A program made the position numbers and the translations under genes. The notes beneath the pieces were generated by a model. That model was not told the origin of the DNA and did not search any database. It saw only the letters and a program-made list of their open reading frames with translations. 64,000 nucleotides of DNA from Candidatus Saccharicenans sp. (GTDB taxonomy: Bacteria > Acidobacteriota > Aminicenantia > Aminicenantales > Saccharicenantaceae): positions 62,001 to 126,000 of the forward strand of contig JANLFU010000002.1 in assembly GCA_024653215.1 (NCBI GenBank). Reading direction: 5' to 3'. Below, piece by piece: positions 23,272-33,336 of the stretch (its first letter is position 1; the number at the start of each line of letters is the position of its first letter).

Positions 23272-24387
23272 TCAAGTTTTCAGGGCAGAGAGCACCTCGG
23301 CCACCCGGTCCAGGGCCTTTTTCAGGTAATCCTGGCTGGAGCCGTAACCGAAGCGCAGGTGCTGGTCCAGTTCAAAGTGATCGCCCGGGACAAGGAGCAC
23401 GCTCTTTTCTTTCATGATTTTTTCCACCAGCTCGGTGGAGTTAATCTGCAGGTTGTAGCGGGCAAATAGAATGGCCCCGGCCTGGGGCGGAAGATAGCTG
23501 AACAGGCCGTTAAAGCCGTTTAGCCACTTTTCCAGGACGGGCAGGTTGTTGTTCAGTATATCTCTGGTTCTTTTCAGAATCCTTTGCCGCCTTTCCGGTT
23601 CCAGCACCCTGGTGGCCAGGTGGTCGGTCAGGGCCGAGACCGAAATGGTGGTGTAATCGTGGTAGGTCCAGATTTTCCTGACCAGCTCCAGCGGCCCGAC
23701 CAGCCAGCCCAGCCGCAGCCCGGGCAGGCCATAGGCTTTCGATAAGCCGGCCACCACCACCAGCCGGTCGTAGCTGCCCCAGAAGGAAGGGGTTTCCAGT
23801 CCGTTTCTTTCGGCTCCCCGGTAGACCTCGTCCACCAGCAACCAGGCCCCGACCTTTTCCGCCTGCCTGACGATTTCTTCACGGATTTCGCGGCTCAGGA
23901 TGGCCCCGGTCGGGTTGTTGGGATTGGTCAGGATGATGAGCCGGGTGTTACCGTTGACCAGCTTCCTGAGGTCGTCCGGGTCCGGCTGCCAGCCCAGTTC
24001 GGACCGTAGCCACAGGGGTTTAACCCGGGCCCCGAAGCTCCGGCTGAGGCCCCACATCTGCATGTAATTGGGTAGCTCGAAGACCACCTCGTCCCCGGGT
24101 TCCAGCAGCGACCACATCAGCAGGAAGTTGGCTTCAGACGACCCGGCGGTGACCATGATCTGTTCCGGGTCAATCCCGGGATAAAGCCGGGCGATGTTTT
24201 CCCGCAGCCGCGGGGTGCCGTTGGTCTGGGTATAACCGATGTCCACCGCGGCCAGCTCTTCCAGCTCGCCGGGCAGCAACAGTTCTTTCAGGTTCAGAGG
24301 GTGGACCCCGCTTTCCGACAGGTTGTAGTCGACCACGTTTTCCCAGAGCGACTGCATTCTTTCCATCTTGAAGATTTCAATTTTCAC
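23272..24387 (-). CDS. Class I/II PLP-dependent aminotransferase
   Basis: MVTAGSSEANFLLMWSLLEPGDEVVFELPNY; LIILTNPNNPTGAIL; VVVAGLSKAYGLPGLRLGWLVG. Confidence 0.93.
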   Translation of the reverse strand: MKIEIFKMERMQSLWENVVDYNLSESGVHPLNLKELLLPGELEELAAVDIGYTQTNGTPRLRENIARLYPGIDPEQIMVTAGSSEANFLLMWSLLEPGDEVVFELPNYMQMWGLSRSFGARVKPLWLRSELGWQPDPDDLRKLVNGNTRLIILTNPNNPTGAILSREIREEIVRQAEKVGAWLLVDEVYRGAERNGLETPSFWGSYDRLVVVAGLSKAYGLPGLRLGWLVGPLELVRKIWTYHDYTTISVSALTDHLATRVLEPERRQRILKRTRDILNNNLPVLEKWLNGFNGLFSYLPPQAGAILFARYNLQINSTELVEKIMKEKSVLLVPGDHFELDQHLRFGYGSSQDYLKKALDRVAEVLSALKT

Positions 24388-24412: not shown

Positions 24413-25243
24413 TCAGATTTCTACCTTGAACAGGCCCTTTAGAGCCAGGCCCAGGATGATGGAGAGGAGAAAGTAGGCCACCAGCCAGTGAAAACCTATC
24501 CCCAGTAGCTTCAGCCTTTGCGGCTCGAAGCGGAGTTCAATCTGCTTGAGCAGGGAATCGGCCGGAAGCGGTCTTTCTCCCGGGTAGAGAAGCTCCTGCC
24601 AGAGGTTCCTCTTCACTCTGACGGTTGAGACCCTGAGAAGCCGGCCCTTCCCGGCCGGAACGATTTTCTGGTACCTTTCGCCGTTGACCTGGATGACCAG
24701 GGGGTCGTCAACCGGGCCGGTTACCTTCAACCGCCAGGCTACCTCGGCCTCGTCGATTATCCTGACTGGCGGAGTTTCCACCACCAGCCCCTCGGGCGTT
24801 TCCAGGTCCAGTCTCAACCTTTCCAGGTCCATGGTCTTTATAAACCGGGCCTTCAGCAGAAAAGTTTCACCCGGGGCCGGCGGGCGCGAGGTAAACCACA
24901 GGTTGAGCTGGGCCAGGATCAGGAAAATGGGCACTATCATGACCAGCAGCGGTTTGAGGTTGTACAGCAGGTACTGCAGGTTGGCCGCGAGCAGTTCTTT
25001 CTGGCTTCCGAGCTGGGTCCTGAGGTCAGTCTGGTAAAGCCTGATTTCGAGCAGGTTGGCCTTGATGCGATTTTTCACCCGCCTGATTCCCTCCTGGTTG
25101 GAGGTTTTCTTGTAGATGAACAGCATCAGCAGTGCGGTCAGAAGGGAAATAGCCAGCATGGCCACCCAGGGATTGAGGGAAGAAAAGGGCAGAAAGATGA
25201 GGTTGAATAAACTTCCGACTGCTCTGTTCAGCCACCAGACCAT
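24413..25243 (-). CDS. EMC3/TMCO1/DUF106-like membrane protein (Oxa1/YidC superfamily-like) with a soluble insert
   Basis: TM1 (WVAMLAISLLTALLMLFIYKKTS), basic helical stretch (RRVKNRIKANLLEIRLYQTDLRTQLGSQKELLAANLQYLLYNLKP), TM2 (LLVMIVPIFLILAQLNLWF), ~130-aa soluble domain, TM3 (HWLVAYFLLSIILGLALKGLF). Confidence 0.65.
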   Translation of the reverse strand: MVWWLNRAVGSLFNLIFLPFSSLNPWVAMLAISLLTALLMLFIYKKTSNQEGIRRVKNRIKANLLEIRLYQTDLRTQLGSQKELLAANLQYLLYNLKPLLVMIVPIFLILAQLNLWFTSRPPAPGETFLLKARFIKTMDLERLRLDLETPEGLVVETPPVRIIDEAEVAWRLKVTGPVDDPLVIQVNGERYQKIVPAGKGRLLRVSTVRVKRNLWQELLYPGERPLPADSLLKQIELRFEPQRLKLLGIGFHWLVAYFLLSIILGLALKGLFKVEI

Positions 25244-25264: not shown

Positions 25265-25456
25265 TCAGGAGATATAGCCCAGGCCCTTGAGCCTCTTCTT
25301 GATTTCTTCCTCGGAATCGGCCCCTTCGAACTTGGCCACTTCCTTTTCCAGCAGGTGAACGATGAACTCTTCGGTTGAGCTGTAGCCGGCAGCCTCGGCG
25401 ATCTTTTCAATCTTTTCGTACAGGTCTTTTTCCAGCTTGACCTTGGCCTTGCCCAT
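25265..25456 (-). CDS. Small ribbon-helix-helix-like (CopG-type) protein
   Basis: MGKAKVKLEKDLYEKIEKIAEAAGYSSTEEFIVHLLEKEVAKFEGADSEEEIKKRLKGLGYIS. Confidence 0.75.
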   Translation of the reverse strand: MGKAKVKLEKDLYEKIEKIAEAAGYSSTEEFIVHLLEKEVAKFEGADSEEEIKKRLKGLGYIS

Positions 25457-25488: not shown

Positions 25489-27522
25489 TCAGAATAACGG
25501 CCGGCCGGTGATTTCAGGTGGAATTTTAACCCCGAACAGCGTCAGAATGCCAGCGGTCACGTCTTCCAGGGCCGGTTGCTCCAGCCGGGCCGGCCGGCTG
25601 GCCAGCAACACTCCCGGGATCAGGTCGGGAGCTGTCATGTGGTCGCCGCTCCATTTCTGGGGATTGTCTTCGATGAGCTCTCTCGGGAAACTGCCCAGGG
25701 GCGAGTTCCAGGAGATGCGGTAATTACGATTAAAACCAAGGATTATATCCGGGGCCTCGGGTAGATAGGCCCCGCTGTAAACTTCGGAGGTCAGGTAAGC
25801 TTTGAGGATGACTTTTTCCCCGGTCAGGGGGTCGGTGACCTGTTCCAGCTTGTGGGCCAGTTCCCGGAGCAGTGGCTCCTTTTCTTCCGGCCGGACCAGG
25901 CCCTGGGCTTCCCGGCCCTTGAGGTTCAGGTACAGGGCGTTGAGTCCGACACCGTAGGCCCTGGTCCTCGACCAGTCGGTTGCCTGAAATAAAGACACTT
26001 CTTCCGGCCTGGTTCCCGGGCGAAGCACGTGGTAACCGTTTCTCAGGAGCCAGGTGTTGAGGTTAAAACCGCGCCGGAAGGGACAGAAGCCGTGGTCGGA
26101 CATGACCACGATGACCGTGTTCCGGTCCACCTTCTCCATCGCCAGCTGCAGGGCCCGGTCCATCTGGCGGTAGGTCTGCTCGATGACCTGGCCGAACTCG
26201 GCCGCCAGCTTCTCGTTGTAGGCCGGGTGGTTGCGGTCTATCAGGCGAAAGAACATGTGCTGGCGCTGGTCGGCGTTGGAAAAATAATAGAAGAGAAGGC
26301 CCGAGCGGAAGTTCCTGAGCTCCTCTTCCAGCATGGCCATGGATTCCTGGTAGACGATTTCATCCTGGGCCAGGAACTCCTTTTCGTCCAGGACATCGTT
26401 TTCCAGGGCGGCGGTATCGGCCGGCAGTCCCTTGGTGAAGAACGGCCCGAACTTTCTGGCCAGCTCCCGGGAATAACTTTCCGGGGTGCTCAGCGGCAGG
26501 GCCGGGTCAGATGGATCGATGTTTATCGGGCTGACGTAGAGCTTGAATTTCGGCCGGACTTCCTTGAGGTAAAACATGCAGATTCCGCTGACGCCCTGGG
26601 TTGGAATAAAATCAAACCTGATTTTCTTCCAGCCGCTCCATTCTTTTTCCCTCAGGATAAACTCCTGGTCCTGGTAGGCAATCTTGGCCACCGGGTTGAC
26701 CGGGTCGATAAAAACCTTGAAGTCGACAAAGGTTTCCGGGTTGCCCCGCTGGAAGGGGTTGTTGGGTCCCGGGATCCGGGCTTCCACCCGGTTGCCGATG
26801 ACGTAGACATCGTGTACCCGGCCGCCCCCTCCGTATTCTTCGGTAACGGTCTTGTATTCGTTGGTGTAATAGTTGAAAAGTCCGTAATAGCCCTTGAGGT
26901 CGGGGGTACCCATGCCGGAAAAAGTGCGTTGCTTGGTTTCAACCGGCGGGTAATTGGAAGGAATCTTGAACACGGTGGCCGGGATGTCGTAATCTTCCAG
27001 GATCTGCCAGAAAGCCCGTCCCCGGCGCAGGTTTCTGATTTCCCCGCCCGAGAGCGGAATGTTCAGCTTGCCCAGCCTGAGGTTATGCCTGGCCGGCAGG
27101 CTCTCGGAAGCGGAAAACACCGGCAGGTAGGTCCTGGGGTCGCGGTGGACAAAATCAAAAATGCCATGGCCGCCGGGATTGGTCCCTGTGATGAAATTGG
27201 CCCAGGCCACCGGGCTCTGTGGCGGGACGCTCGAACCAAGCGGACGGTAGGTTCCCGAGGCGGCCAGCTTCTGGAAATGGGGGAGCTTGCCCTCCTGGAG
27301 GAAGCGGTCGAGGAGAACGGTATCCAGGCCGTCCATGCCCAGGACCAGTACCTTCAGCCCGGTTTCTTTCCGACCGGCAGTCCGAAGGAAAGCCTGGCCA
27401 GGAGCAAGAAGAAGTCCGGCCGATGTACCCAGGACCAGCTGCAGGAACTCCCGTCGTTTGAGGGCCTCTTCATTTTTTCTTCCGGACATCGGAGCCTGCC
27501 TTTTTCTGAACGTTTTCTCCAT
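25489..27522 (-). CDS. Alkaline phosphatase superfamily (type I phosphodiesterase/nucleotide pyrophosphatase-like) protein with Tat-like signal; alternative start 27489
   Basis: ALKRREFLQLVLGTSAGLLLAPGQAFL; VLVLGMDGLDTVLLDRFL; QSPVAWANFITGTNPGGHGIFDFVHRDP; VVMSDHGFCPFRRGFNLNTWL. Confidence 0.9.
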   Translation of the reverse strand: MEKTFRKRQAPMSGRKNEEALKRREFLQLVLGTSAGLLLAPGQAFLRTAGRKETGLKVLVLGMDGLDTVLLDRFLQEGKLPHFQKLAASGTYRPLGSSVPPQSPVAWANFITGTNPGGHGIFDFVHRDPRTYLPVFSASESLPARHNLRLGKLNIPLSGGEIRNLRRGRAFWQILEDYDIPATVFKIPSNYPPVETKQRTFSGMGTPDLKGYYGLFNYYTNEYKTVTEEYGGGGRVHDVYVIGNRVEARIPGPNNPFQRGNPETFVDFKVFIDPVNPVAKIAYQDQEFILREKEWSGWKKIRFDFIPTQGVSGICMFYLKEVRPKFKLYVSPINIDPSDPALPLSTPESYSRELARKFGPFFTKGLPADTAALENDVLDEKEFLAQDEIVYQESMAMLEEELRNFRSGLLFYYFSNADQRQHMFFRLIDRNHPAYNEKLAAEFGQVIEQTYRQMDRALQLAMEKVDRNTVIVVMSDHGFCPFRRGFNLNTWLLRNGYHVLRPGTRPEEVSLFQATDWSRTRAYGVGLNALYLNLKGREAQGLVRPEEKEPLLRELAHKLEQVTDPLTGEKVILKAYLTSEVYSGAYLPEAPDIILGFNRNYRISWNSPLGSFPRELIEDNPQKWSGDHMTAPDLIPGVLLASRPARLEQPALEDVTAGILTLFGVKIPPEITGRPLF

Positions 27523-29680
27523 TTTCTTTTTTTATTTTACCCGAATCTTCCGGAAGAAGCGACCGGCCATCCAGGTAGGCCGGCAGCGGAACCCCGAACA
27601 GCTGGAGGACGGTCGGGGCTATGTCCATGATGCTGGCCTCCCGGGCGTCCAGCTTCAGGTTGCTGAACAGCACTCCGGGAACCAGGGCCGGGTCCAGGCA
27701 GTGGTCGGCCGACCAGGCCTTACGATTGTCCTCGATGACAGTCCGGTTGACCTTGCCCACCACCGAGTCCCAGGAAGCCCGGTAACCCTGGTTGTAGGCC
27801 ACGATCAGGTCGGGAGCGTTATCCCGGTAGGGCCCATGGTAAATCTTTTCAGAATCAATCAGCCGGTTGATGGCCACCGAGCCCTTTTCCGGGTCTTTAA
27901 GCCCGGAGAGTTTTTCCATGAGCTCCTGCTTGAGGCGCCGGCTTTCTTCTCCCGGCTCAACGATTCCCTGGGCCTCGCGACCGCGGAGGTTGAGGTAGAT
28001 TCCGGCCAGGCCCAGGGCATAGGCCCTGGTCCGGCTCCAGTCAACCTGGCGGAACCATTCCTCGCTTTCGCTGGCCCCTTCCTTGAGATGAAGGTAGCCA
28101 TTCAGGTATAGCCAGGAGTTCAGGTTGACCCCGCGGCGGAAAGCCTTGAAGCCATGGTCGGACATGACGAACAGGCAGCTTTTGTCGTCCAGGCTGTTCA
28201 GGACCCGGCCGACCAGCGTGTCCATTTTCTGGTAGAGTTCTTCCAGCACCCGGGAGCCGTCTTCCAGCCTGGCCGTTGGCTGGTAGGCTGGATGGCTTTT
28301 ATCGAGGTAGCGCCAGAACATGTGCTGGATGCTATCGGTGGTTTCAAAAACACAGGCCAGGAGCCCGCGGCGGGTTTTCTTCAGGCCGTTGAAGAAAATT
28401 TTTTCCCAGTCCTCGTGGAAGGAATAAGCCAGTTCCAGGAAAGCCTTTTCCGGAAGTACTCCCTCGTTGAGGGCCCAGGTGTCGTTGGCCTCGCCCAGGG
28501 TGACGTAGCTGCCGAATAGCCTGGCCAGGTAGGGCGCATAAATAAAAGGATGGGAAATGGGCAGGGCCGGCTTTTCCGGGTCGATGTTGAGCGGAGTGAC
28601 GTAGAGTTCAAAGTGCGGTTTTAGGTTCAGCAGGTAGAACCGGGCGATGCCCCGGATTTTCATTCCCGGCCCGGCCGGGAAGCTGAGCCTGACCCAGGGC
28701 GAAAAAACGCCCTTCTTCAGTTCGAAACGCTGGCCCGAGACTTCCACCAGGGCCGAGTCCTGCTCGTAGTTGAGTTTTATGGTCATCGGCAGCCGAATTT
28801 CTTCCGGCTTTTTTAGAAGGGAATTTTCGGGGCCACCCAGGTAGGTCCTGACCACCTGGCCTTCCACCGTGACCAGCTGGCTTTCTCCACCCTCTTTTTT
28901 CTCCAGGCGGGCCGGGTTGCTGGTATAAAAAAGGAAGGTGCCCTGGCTGCCTTTAAGGTCGGGCAGGCACATCCCCGACAGCAGGTGCCCGGCGAATTTC
29001 TCCGGGGGGAAGGTGATGGGCACCCGGAGCACGGTGGAAAAAATGCCCTGCTGGCCGAGGATTTTCCAGAAGGGCTGGCTTCGGCGCAGCAGTTTTATTT
29101 CCGGCCGGCCCAGGGGTATCCGGTACCGGCCCAGCGGTATAAACCGGCGCGGCGGTCCTATCCGGGCCGAGGACAGGTCCGGCAGGTAATTCTTCGGGTT
29201 GCGGCTTAAAAAATCGAAGATGTTGTGTTTTGATGGTTCGCAGCCGGTCATGAAGGAAGACCAGGCCACGGGGGAAATGGCCGGGGTGGTCGTCTGCAGG
29301 GGTCGGTAGGTTCCCTCTTTTTTTAGCCGGCTGAGGTTGGGCAGCTTGCCCTCGGCCATGAACTTTTCGGCCAGCACCGGGTCCATCCCGTCAAAGCCGA
29401 GGATGATGACCCGGTCGACCCGGCTGTGGCGGTAGGCCTTCTGACCCCGGAGCAGGCGGAGCAATAGCCGGAAGGGCCAGCTCAGCAAGGAGAAAAAGGC
29501 CAGGAAAAAGGTCAGGAAGAAAACCAGGAAGGATGAGAGGAAAGCAAATCCGGCTCCCGGCCCGATATAAGCTGCGGCGCTGACGGTCAGGCTGAGGAGC
29601 AGAAAGAAGAATAGCCGGTAATTCAGGACAGGCCCTGGCCGACGGTTCGGGTAGGAGTTTTCACCGCTTGCGGCTTTCAT
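27470..29680 (-). CDS. Alkaline phosphatase superfamily protein with N-terminal membrane segments
   Basis: Two or three N-terminal TM segments, then VIILGFDGMDPVLAEKFMAEGKLPNLSRLKKEGTYRPLQTTTPAISPVAWSSFMTGCEPSKHNIFDF; FVMSDHGFKAFRRGVNLNSWL. Confidence 0.92.
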   Translation of the reverse strand: MKAASGENSYPNRRPGPVLNYRLFFFLLLSLTVSAAAYIGPGAGFAFLSSFLVFFLTFFLAFFSLLSWPFRLLLRLLRGQKAYRHSRVDRVIILGFDGMDPVLAEKFMAEGKLPNLSRLKKEGTYRPLQTTTPAISPVAWSSFMTGCEPSKHNIFDFLSRNPKNYLPDLSSARIGPPRRFIPLGRYRIPLGRPEIKLLRRSQPFWKILGQQGIFSTVLRVPITFPPEKFAGHLLSGMCLPDLKGSQGTFLFYTSNPARLEKKEGGESQLVTVEGQVVRTYLGGPENSLLKKPEEIRLPMTIKLNYEQDSALVEVSGQRFELKKGVFSPWVRLSFPAGPGMKIRGIARFYLLNLKPHFELYVTPLNIDPEKPALPISHPFIYAPYLARLFGSYVTLGEANDTWALNEGVLPEKAFLELAYSFHEDWEKIFFNGLKKTRRGLLACVFETTDSIQHMFWRYLDKSHPAYQPTARLEDGSRVLEELYQKMDTLVGRVLNSLDDKSCLFVMSDHGFKAFRRGVNLNSWLYLNGYLHLKEGASESEEWFRQVDWSRTRAYALGLAGIYLNLRGREAQGIVEPGEESRRLKQELMEKLSGLKDPEKGSVAINRLIDSEKIYHGPYRDNAPDLIVAYNQGYRASWDSVVGKVNRTVIEDNRKAWSADHCLDPALVPGVLFSNLKLDAREASIMDIAPTVLQLFGVPLPAYLDGRSLLPEDSGKIKKENGENVQKKAGSDVRKKK

Positions 29681-30975
29681 TTAATCTTTTTGACGATGAG
29701 TCCGGCCAGGTCCTCGATGGCCAGGTCGGGTCCGTGTTCTTCCATCGACCAGAAGAAAGCGTCGTCCCAGGTGTGCATTCCCTGCAGGTGGCTGCGCCCG
29801 AACACTTCTTTCTTACGGATGGAACCCTTCAGGTCGAAACCGGGCTCGGATACCACCACCAGGTCCGGGCCGCGGGAAGTATATTTACCGTCGTAAATTT
29901 CCTCGGCTTTGAAAACATGGCGGATAACTTTCCGGCCCTCGTATTCCAGCTTGAGCAGTTTCTCGGCAATTTCCTGCTTGAGTTCCTTCTTGTCCGACCG
30001 ATCCACCCGCCCCCGGGGAAATTTTTTCTTCAGGTTGAGGTAGATGCGGTTGGGGTCGAGGGCAAAGGCCACCGTCCGGTTGGAAATGTCGTTAAGGGTC
30101 CTGGGTTCGGGAGTGTTAAAGGACAGGTAGCCGTTCCGGGCCAGCCAGGCGTTGAGGTAGACTTCCTGGACGATGCCGGTAAAACCGTGGTCGGACAGCA
30201 GGAAAAGGTTTTCCTCGCTCTCGTTCATCTTCTTGAAGGTGTTGAGGATCTTGGCGATGATGCGGTCAATCTGCTGGTAGAAGTCCAGGAAGGCCTGGTG
30301 GTAGGGATGGTCCTTGTGCTCGTAGGCCGACCACAGGAAGTGGTGCAGCCGGTCGGTGCAGGTGATGACAAACTGGAAATAGTCCCAGTCCTGTTCCCAG
30401 AAATAGTTCAGGGCCTTCTGGTGGCTGGCCATGGTCTTGGAAATTTCCTGCCAGAGAACCGAGGGGTTGTCGGCCACCTTGCCCGAGTCCACGTCTATCT
30501 GGTAGCCCATCTGCTCCAGGGCGGTGAAGTAGCTCTGGGGGAAGACCGAACGGGACAGGTCGACGGCCACGAAGCCGGAAACCAGGACCCCGTTTATCCT
30601 CCGGGCCGGGTAGGTGGAGGGCTGGTTGATGACGATGCTCTTCAGGCCGCGACTTCCCAGCCGGTCCCAGATGGTTTCGGCCTTGACGTCCAGGAAATTG
30701 GGCAGCCTGATTTCGTAGGTCCCGGGCTTGAAGTCGGTGAAGCCGAAGATGCCGTGGCTGCCCGGGTTGGTCCCGGTCATGAAGTTGGTCCAGGAAACGG
30801 CTGATATCTCGGGCAGGCTGGCCTTCATCCGGTGCAGGTGGCCGATGTCCAGCAGGCGGGCCACGGTGCTCATCACCCCGGACTTGGCCAGCTCCAGGAG
30901 CATGGAGTGGGGGACACCGTCCAGCCCGATAACGCAGATTTTTCGGCGGGGTTTCTGTTTTCTGATTATGGCCAT
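29677..30975 (-). CDS. Alkaline phosphatase superfamily protein, no evident signal peptide
   Basis: KICVIGLDGVPHSMLLELAKSGVM; EISAVSWTNFMTGTNPGSHGIFGFTDFKP; LLSDHGFTGIVQEVYLNAWL; stop overlaps the next start (ATGA). Confidence 0.92.
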   Translation of the reverse strand: MAIIRKQKPRRKICVIGLDGVPHSMLLELAKSGVMSTVARLLDIGHLHRMKASLPEISAVSWTNFMTGTNPGSHGIFGFTDFKPGTYEIRLPNFLDVKAETIWDRLGSRGLKSIVINQPSTYPARRINGVLVSGFVAVDLSRSVFPQSYFTALEQMGYQIDVDSGKVADNPSVLWQEISKTMASHQKALNYFWEQDWDYFQFVITCTDRLHHFLWSAYEHKDHPYHQAFLDFYQQIDRIIAKILNTFKKMNESEENLFLLSDHGFTGIVQEVYLNAWLARNGYLSFNTPEPRTLNDISNRTVAFALDPNRIYLNLKKKFPRGRVDRSDKKELKQEIAEKLLKLEYEGRKVIRHVFKAEEIYDGKYTSRGPDLVVVSEPGFDLKGSIRKKEVFGRSHLQGMHTWDDAFFWSMEEHGPDLAIEDLAGLIVKKIK

Positions 30976-31078: not shown

Positions 31079-31771
31079 TCAGTGCGCTTCCTGGCCGCCG
31101 GCCTTGAGGACCTGTTCCAGGAACATCTCCTCCGGCACCGCCCCTTCCAGGCTCAGGCTGTCGTTGAAGATGGTCTTGGGAACGCCGAACACCTCGTACT
31201 TCTGGGTAAGTTCAGGAAATTCAGTGGCTTCGACCATGGCCGCCCTGACCAGGGGAGATTCCAGGGCCATCTGGTGGCCCAGGCGGACGGCCACCGGGCA
31301 GTAGGGGCAGGTGGGAGTGACAAAAACCTGGATGTTGACCTCTTTATCGAGCTTCTTAAGGGCAGTCTTGGTTTCCTCTGATAACTCGGTTTCGCCCCGG
31401 CTGACGTCCACGATGGCCTCCAGCAGGCTCATGAACTCGTAGCCCGAGGGTATCCCGAAGAAGCGGATGCCGGCATCCTTTTCGCCCATGACCACGATGG
31501 CCGGCACCTTGTCCACCTGGAACTCGGCCGCCCGGGCCGGTTCCTTCTCAAAATCGTACACGGTCAGCTTGATTTTATCGGTCAGACCGGCCAGCTCTTC
31601 CAGCAGCTGCTTGGTTTCCGGGCAGAAACCGCAGTCTTCCTGGACCTCGCGCCCGGGCACGATCAGCGGGCTCTTTTCCTTCTGGAAATAGACCAGGTTA
31701 ACCGGGTTCCGAAGCTCGGCCTCGAATTTTTTCCGGGTAAAATCCCTGACTTCTTCGTTAAGAAGTTGCAT
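31079..31771 (-). CDS. Protein disulfide oxidoreductase (PDO)/glutaredoxin-like, tandem thioredoxin folds
   Basis: Two CxxC motifs: EDCGFCPETKQLLEEL and VTPTCPYCPVAVRLGHQMA. Confidence 0.88.
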   Translation of the reverse strand: MQLLNEEVRDFTRKKFEAELRNPVNLVYFQKEKSPLIVPGREVQEDCGFCPETKQLLEELAGLTDKIKLTVYDFEKEPARAAEFQVDKVPAIVVMGEKDAGIRFFGIPSGYEFMSLLEAIVDVSRGETELSEETKTALKKLDKEVNIQVFVTPTCPYCPVAVRLGHQMALESPLVRAAMVEATEFPELTQKYEVFGVPKTIFNDSLSLEGAVPEEMFLEQVLKAGGQEAH

Positions 31772-31950: not shown

Positions 31951-33336
31951 ATGGAAAAATTATTCCGCTACCTGGAAAGGGAATACCGGAAGAAAACGGC
32001 GAAAAGCGCCGCTCTGTTCCGCCGGGCTTCCCGGGTCATGGTCCGCGGGGGCAGCCATTCCCTCCGGCTGTGGAAACCCTATCCCTTCTTTCCGGTCTCG
32101 GCCGCCGGGGCGGAAGTCAGCGACGTTGACGGAAACCGCTACCTTGATTACTGGCAGGGACATTACGCCAACATCCTGGGTCATAACCCCGAGGTCATCC
32201 GCCGGGCAGTGGAGCCCCATTTCCAGCACGGCACCTTTCATACCGGTTTCGAGACCCTGTCCCAGGTGGAGCTGGCCGAAAGGCTGCTGGCCAGCCTGGG
32301 CCGCCGGGGGCTTAAAGTCCGCTTTACCACTTCCGGGACCCTGGCCTCCACCTACGCCGTGATGCTGGCCATGGGCTACACCGGCCGCCAGCGCGTCCTC
32401 AAGGTCGGCGGTGGCTGGCACGGGGCCTCTCCCTACCTGCTCAAAGGGGTGAAGTTTCAGCCCGGAGCCGGATTCCGGGCCGCGGATTCGGCCGGGGTGC
32501 CCCCCGAGTTCAGCCGCCAGGTGCTCATCACCAGGTTCAACGACTGCCAGCACCTGTCGGATGTTTTCCAGAAGCACGGCCGGAAGCTGGCCGCCTTCAT
32601 CCTGGAACCCTTTATCGGTGTCGGGGGGTTCCTGTTCTGCTCCCGCCAGTACCTGGAGCTGGCCCGGCAGCTTTGCGACCGCTACGGGGTGGTCCTGATT
32701 TTCGACGAAATCATCTCCGGTTTCAGGTTCTGCGCCTCGGGCCTGCAGAAGCTCTACGGCCTTTCACCCGATATTTCTCTTTTTGGCAAGTTAATCGGCG
32801 GCGGGCAGGCGGTGGCGGCCGTGGTCGGTAAAGCCGAGATCATGGAAGGCTGTGAACCGTCGGGCCTGAAACACAGGCGTGTCCACTTTGAGGGCGGCAC
32901 CTTTTCCTCTCACGAAGAATACATGAGGGCCGGCCTGGCCATGCTGGATTACCTGGAAAAGAACCAGCACCGGGTTTATCCTTACCTCGGGCAGCAAGCC
33001 GAAAAGCTCAGGCGCGGCATAGAAAGGGTTTTCCGGGAAGAGGGACTGGAGGCCGTCTGCACCGGCGACGGCCACGAGCTGGTACCGGACTCGTCCTTTT
33101 TCATGGTCAACTTTCCGAGGAAAAAAATCGACTACCGCCAGCCCGAAGACCTCTGGAACCCGGAACGTTCAAACGTTACCCTGAGGGAGGAAGTCCTGAA
33201 ACTGGCCCTGCTCCTTAACGGGGTCCACGTGGTTCACGGCGGGGGCTGCCTGTCGACCGCTCACACCCCGGAGGACGTCGACCGGACCATCCAGGCCTAT
33301 GCCGAGGCCGCCCGCATTTTCAGGCGGTTCTTATAA
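31951..33336 (+). CDS. Class III aminotransferase (glutamate-1-semialdehyde 2,1-aminomutase-like)
   Basis: VSDVDGNRYLDYWQGHYANILGHNPEVI; VLIFDEIISGFRF; DISLFGKLIGGGQAVAAVVGKAEIM. Confidence 0.9.
   Translation: MEKLFRYLEREYRKKTAKSAALFRRASRVMVRGGSHSLRLWKPYPFFPVSAAGAEVSDVDGNRYLDYWQGHYANILGHNPEVIRRAVEPHFQHGTFHTGFETLSQVELAERLLASLGRRGLKVRFTTSGTLASTYAVMLAMGYTGRQRVLKVGGGWHGASPYLLKGVKFQPGAGFRAADSAGVPPEFSRQVLITRFNDCQHLSDVFQKHGRKLAAFILEPFIGVGGFLFCSRQYLELARQLCDRYGVVLIFDEIISGFRFCASGLQKLYGLSPDISLFGKLIGGGQAVAAVVGKAEIMEGCEPSGLKHRRVHFEGGTFSSHEEYMRAGLAMLDYLEKNQHRVYPYLGQQAEKLRRGIERVFREEGLEAVCTGDGHELVPDSSFFMVNFPRKKIDYRQPEDLWNPERSNVTLREEVLKLALLLNGVHVVHGGGCLSTAHTPEDVDRTIQAYAEAARIFRRFL

Follow-up and report, generated by a model that had tools for sequence, protein, structure and literature searches.

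We identified in Acidobacteriota a membrane protein which profile comparisons relate to the DUF106 (EMC3/TMCO1) proteins, which carries a predicted beta-rich domain between its second and third transmembrane segments (TM2 and TM3) and which is encoded together with phosphodiesterases apparently placed on both sides of the membrane. We consider it, at a probability of about 0.45, to be a DUF106-type protein that gained this domain and serves a two-sided phosphodiesterase system as its dedicated membrane partner, its groove either assembling the phosphodiesterase PDE2 or passing a substrate. The gene was found in a stretch of 64,000 nucleotides from Candidatus Saccharicenans sp. (contig JANLFU010000002.1, positions 62,001 to 126,000), called the window here, and all coordinates refer to it.

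Predicted architecture and family relation of the membrane protein

The gene (24413..25243) is read on the minus strand from an ATG start and encodes 276 amino acids, the plus-strand reading being ruled out by stops throughout. A preliminary description of this DNA had proposed an open reading frame at this site and had given no strand; the frame proved to be real and all peptides quoted from it are present. A chance frame is ruled out by the spread of full-length, uninterrupted homologues, which are present in 37 of 40 near relatives, in 77 of 297 genomes sampled evenly across Acidobacteriota and, in a separate sample of relatives, in 169 of 396. A sequence scan of genome contigs returned homologues in close relatives only, and a plasmid sequence search found none on plasmids.

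The AlphaFold2 model, calculated with an alignment of 67 family proteins whose homologues are 26-87% identical to the window protein, has a mean pLDDT of 96.2 and a pTM of 0.88 and is without a weak segment. It predicts, all on the minus strand, an N-terminal helix before TM1 (residues 2-20, 25184..25240), TM1 (residues 25-47, 25103..25171), a basic helical hairpin predicted to be cytoplasmic (residues 48-97, 24953..25102), TM2 (residues 98-117, 24893..24952), an inserted domain predicted to be periplasmic (residues 118-251, 24491..24892) and TM3 (residues about 252-269, 24437..24490). The hairpin helices comprise residues 50-69 and 74-97, the second being continuous with TM2 up to residue 117. 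The insert had been suspected to be beta-rich and about 130 residues long; the model places strands from residue 127 to 251, and the segment between TM2 and TM3 has 134 residues in the window protein and 125-155 in all 67 aligned homologues. As this length is kept in all of them, the insert dates back to the ancestor of the family and is no local accident.

Invariant in the 67 sequences are Y91 in the hairpin, K193 in the insert and W253 at the start of TM3, and W170, P221, E223 and G248 of the insert are near-invariant. The membrane segments retain polar residues, i.e. S33 and T36 in TM1, Q112 and the residue at position 114 in TM2, which also has the conserved P98 and P105, and S261 (S/T in the family) in TM3, and they are without any charged residue. 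The cytoplasmic-type hairpin ranks among the most conserved parts of the protein. The mean family net charge of residues 45-97 is +6.4, with the N-terminal part, the insert and the C-terminal tail being near neutral; because the charge excess is confined to this region, the positive-inside rule would place the hairpin in the cytoplasm and the N-terminus and the insert in the periplasm.

Profile comparisons support placing the protein within the Oxa1 superfamily, on its DUF106 (EMC3/TMCO1) branch. Searching all PDB sequences with the family profile (hmmsearch, 177,635 sequences, up to E 10) gave the archaeal DUF106 protein MJ0480 (5c8j) as the sole match, with an E-value of 1.5e-9. The alignment consists of two colinear stretches, residues 8-121 with 9-126 of MJ0480 (38 bits), in which the N-terminal helix aligns with 9-24, and residues 248-273 with 172-197; the second stretch, covering TM3, is weak alone at 6.5 bits, yet it includes the tryptophan starting TM3. 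For archaeal YidC, a published analysis reports that a tryptophan located at the lipid-water interface is conserved (PMC8675477). Comparison with the MJ0480 sequence by hhalign resulted in a probability of 93.9% (E 1.6e-7), and the controls gave 0.2% for an acidobacterial YidC and 0.3% for an unrelated membrane protein from the window. Both proteins have TM1, a basic hairpin, TM2 and TM3 in the same order, an SNQ/VDQ following TM1 and a tryptophan starting TM3, and they differ in that MJ0480 is archaeal and its aligned blocks of TM2 and TM3 are about 46 residues apart, where the bacterial family has a folded domain of 125-155 residues. The preliminary description had assumed these segments to be closely spaced in DUF106/EMC3 proteins; this holds in relative terms, as MJ0480 still has a spacer of about 46 residues.

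The Pfam family EMC3_TMCO1 (PF01956) is matched by 28 of the 67 homologues at E <= 1, with a best E-value of 3.1e-6, the next most frequent Pfam family being matched by four. The window protein itself reaches 18.1 bits, under the cut-off of 27.1, one homologue (L048) exceeds it with 27.5 bits and most members stay below; an NCBIfam search gave the window protein no name. Since it scores under the Pfam gathering cut-off, the protein is, by its profile scores, a divergent new subfamily of the Oxa1 superfamily and not an established PF01956 member. Sub-threshold PF01956 matches within the phylum were rejected as proof on their own, many weak ones falling into frames of 510-600 amino acids, the size of YidC, and one frame whose sequence identifies it as an ordinary YidC (L121:544-2076) matching at E about 2e-5. 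As PF01956 weakly matches ordinary YidC, the Pfam match alone indicates the superfamily, and the PDB and hhalign results are what place the protein on the DUF106 side.

In the fold comparison, Foldseek returned weak matches to beta-sandwich domains for the full model (best E 0.011) and chance helices for residues 1-122 (best E 0.7), with no Oxa1-fold protein among the matches listed in either case. The three-helix Oxa1 core is thus supported by sequence profiles and not by fold comparison: the assignment of TM1, hairpin, TM2 and TM3 to this core in the preliminary description is borne out by the MJ0480 match, hhalign and PF01956 in 28 of the 67 homologues, and of the AlphaFold, profile and Foldseek checks it had proposed, the first two yielded a confident model and the MJ0480 match and the last yielded no Oxa1-fold protein among the matches listed. 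One might accordingly regard the protein as an unrelated three-TM protein resembling DUF106 by convergence on a TM-coiled coil-TM pattern, in line with the Foldseek outcome, the weak single-sequence Pfam score and the fact that composition can inflate remote matches between membrane proteins. We consider this very unlikely, given that the single PDB match among 177,635 sequences is an archaeal DUF106 protein with a colinear TM3 and a common interface tryptophan, that PF01956 is by far the commonest Pfam match and that the hhalign controls are negative.

A conserved operon with phosphodiesterases

In the window, the genes for the phosphodiesterases PDE3, PDE2 and PDE1, a 63-residue protein and the membrane protein lie in this order on one strand, with overlaps or with gaps of no more than about 32 bases. 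The preliminary description was right about the protein's identity and its insert and missed this operon, the main functional clue. All three phosphodiesterases are encoded on the minus strand and belong to the AlkP superfamily: PDE1 (25489..27522; PF01663, E 8.4e-37), its likely start being about 11 codons downstream of the frame start, PDE2 (27470..29680; E 9.1e-32), a paralogue 41% identical to PDE1, and PDE3 (29677..30975; E 1.7e-38), a soluble enzyme without a signal which is present in part of the loci. They reach 111-134 bits on PF01663, above the cut-off of 23, and inspection of the translations by eye revealed the AlkP motifs in all three, i.e. the first metal Asp, the SPVAW/SAVSW serine, DxxxH, SDHG and the final His. 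Apart from a weak sulfatase match, no solved relative of these enzymes was found at E 0.01.

The two paralogues differ in their N-termini. PDE1 has an export signal, Tat-type in the window (RREFL), and its homologues carry, depending on the lineage, Tat-type RR[DE]F[IL] or lipobox signals, pointing to export to the periplasm; it is often without a TM anchor and is lipobox-anchored in some lineages. PDE2 begins with a hydrophobic start followed by the motif AY[IV]GPGAG[FI] (AYIGPGAGF in the window, the motif being present in 37 of 39 PDE2 proteins), a single TM segment and a basic stretch. This N-terminal segment is without any Pfam match and looks like an inverted membrane anchor, and because of the basic stretch after the TM segment the positive-inside rule makes a cytoplasmic catalytic domain most likely. 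The operon enzymes thereby resemble type I phosphodiesterases (PF01663) in the family profile and in the metal and nucleophile motifs, and differ from known PF01663 systems by a paralogue pair apparently located on opposite sides of the membrane and by the accompanying small protein.

This small protein (25265..25456, minus strand) is RHH_1-like (PF01402, 22.3 bits, cut-off 20.5), the scores of its homologues on RHH_1/CopG being mostly under the cut-off, and ends in RLKGLGYIS. The C-terminal tail [KR][LF]xGLGY[IL] plus one residue was found in all 62 cases. Tails of the LGY type also end sulfatases (L065, L098) and a phosphodiesterase paralogue (L116:5704-7158), near or outside these operons, and on Halorussus plasmids a 74-residue frame ending in RLEQLGYLEK (L107:3801-4025) lies just upstream of an AlkP-type gene, with no DUF106-like gene annotated nearby. 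As a lead, the LGY tail may be a docking peptide of AlkP-superfamily systems.

The order PDE2, PDE1, small protein and membrane protein recurs across Acidobacteriota. A phosphodiesterase gene lies directly upstream in 63 of 66 non-identical loci, the other three reaching a contig edge within 351 bases, i.e. in 63 of 63 examinable loci, and the small LGY-tail gene immediately precedes the membrane-protein gene in 62 of 66; two of the four loci without it end at a contig edge, which leaves 62 of 64. The median gap between the membrane-protein gene and the phosphodiesterase/LGY genes preceding it is about 19 bases. PDE1 (E <= 1e-137) is encoded in all 77 genomes with the membrane protein compared to 3 of 220 without it (Fisher p about 2e-68, a significance overstated since the genomes are related). 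Among these three, one reaches a contig edge, another is a fragment and the third (G190, a single contig) is a true exception, showing that PDE1 can exist alone. The partnership of the membrane protein with the phosphodiesterases is thus well supported.

Other genes lie close to the operon. The PLP aminotransferase encoded downstream (23272..24387, minus strand; NF005593, 323.7 bits, under its cut-off of 476) was considered as a member of the system and rejected as probably not belonging to it, its synteny being confined to the window's order and near kin; its nearest models, PRK07324 and capreomycidine synthase, are likewise matched under their cut-offs. A GSA-aminomutase-like PLP enzyme (31951-33336, plus strand) scores under its model cut-off, and a protein disulfide oxidoreductase (31079-31771, minus strand) reaches 271.9 bits on TIGR02187 (cut-off 185). 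In 16 loci (L064, L065, L076, L092 and 12 others) a sulfotransferase gene is located near the operon, and some of these loci also carry sulfatases and genes for PAPS synthesis (fused ATP-sulfurylase/APS kinase). These sulfation-gene neighbours hint that the system may act in the chemistry of surface glycans or lipids.

Proposed function and alternative readings

We propose that a bacterial protein of the DUF106 branch acquired an extracytoplasmic, beta-rich domain in the TM2-TM3 connection, that its basic cytoplasmic hairpin would hold PDE2 and its inserted domain PDE1, and that the small LGY-tail protein would be a cytoplasmic accessory or regulator beside PDE2. The Oxa1-type three-helix groove would serve either for the assembly of PDE2, whose predicted orientation is inverted (N-out), or as a path by which a membrane-anchored substrate moves its polar part from one leaflet to the other. 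The topology of each protein, the physical complex, the substrate and the choice between these two groove functions are inferences on our part. The exclusive association with phosphodiesterases on both sides of the membrane is the reason why we favour a dedicated partner over a general insertase, and the conserved polar residues within the TM segments would fit a working groove. In favour of a groove activity, all Oxa1-family members tested scramble lipids in simulation and some of them in vitro, EMC3 and TMCO1 being among those scrambling in simulation (PMC10491306).

Insertion being the known role of the superfamily, the protein could also be an insertase or chaperone only, which folds and inserts PDE2 and perhaps other operon products and has no catalytic role, with the insert serving as a periplasmic holdase. 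Strict operon linkage, genome co-occurrence and the unusual signal and N-out TM arrangement of PDE2 would agree with this. We regard it as somewhat unlikely, as one-client insertases are rare, as the conserved extracytoplasmic domain suggests a role in the periplasm, where the catalytic domain of PDE2 is not expected, and as the same genome encodes a canonical YidC of 567 amino acids. Due to this separate YidC, the membrane protein is no YidC substitute. It was also rejected as a YidC or second YidC itself, no PF02096 match being among the Pfam matches listed for the window protein and the 67 members and the hhalign probability being 0.2%. YidC (PF02096) is of the same superfamily, and Gram-negative YidC also has a periplasmic beta domain. 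That domain, however, lies between the first two TM segments of a protein with a five-TM core and a conserved positive residue, whereas the window protein has three predicted TM segments, none of them with a charged residue, and its insert between TM2 and TM3.

A groove without charged residue could conversely be one that is no longer active, the protein then being a mere scaffold, i.e. an Oxa1-derived anchor holding the periplasmic PDE1 at the membrane via its insert. The conserved K193, W170, P221 and E223 of the insert and the frequent lack of an own TM anchor in PDE1 are in agreement with such a role. In lineages with lipobox-anchored PDE1, however, the anchor would be needless, an inert anchor would have no need of the polar residues S33, T36, Q112, 114 and S261, and few parts of the protein are as conserved as the cytoplasmic hairpin; we therefore judge a scaffold alone to be unlikely.

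Within the reading as a dedicated partner, a more specific version is that the DUF106-type protein was repurposed in bacteria as a lipid- or glycolipid-passing core, in which a cytoplasmic phosphodiesterase, the groove, the outward-facing docking domain and the periplasmic paralogous phosphodiesterase would act on one membrane-anchored substrate in both leaflets, with sulfation genes joining in some lineages. We hold this version to be rather unlikely as it stands.

Implications for the Oxa1 superfamily in bacteria

In the publications found, DUF106 is regarded as an archaeal group, with YidC forming the branch present in bacteria (PMC8887752, PMC8675477), and the literature searched contained nothing on bacterial DUF106, on EMC3 in Acidobacteriota or on these phosphodiesterases. 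Compared to archaeal DUF106 proteins, the family described here differs by its operon with phosphodiesterases and by most members scoring under the PF01956 cut-off. With the eukaryotic ER proteins EMC3 and TMCO1 it has the Pfam family and the core in common; these give no direct PDB sequence match up to E 10, and their partners and the insert differ. EMC3 and TMCO1 act within larger complexes with lumenal beta-rich partners.

A bacterial DUF106-like protein existing beside a normal YidC, with constant partners in every examinable locus, is a natural experiment on this fold as something other than a general insertase, and its association with phosphodiesterases at both membrane faces makes the recent proposal of lipid scrambling by Oxa1-fold proteins testable. 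The operon furthermore connects an unnamed LGY-tail small protein with enzymes of the AlkP superfamily, both in bacteria and, apparently, in haloarchaea, and it makes the DUF106-like protein a system open to testing rather than a mere curiosity. Our data suggest that in many Acidobacteriota an ancient insertase fold came to serve, as a dedicated partner, a phosphodiesterase system acting on both sides of the membrane.
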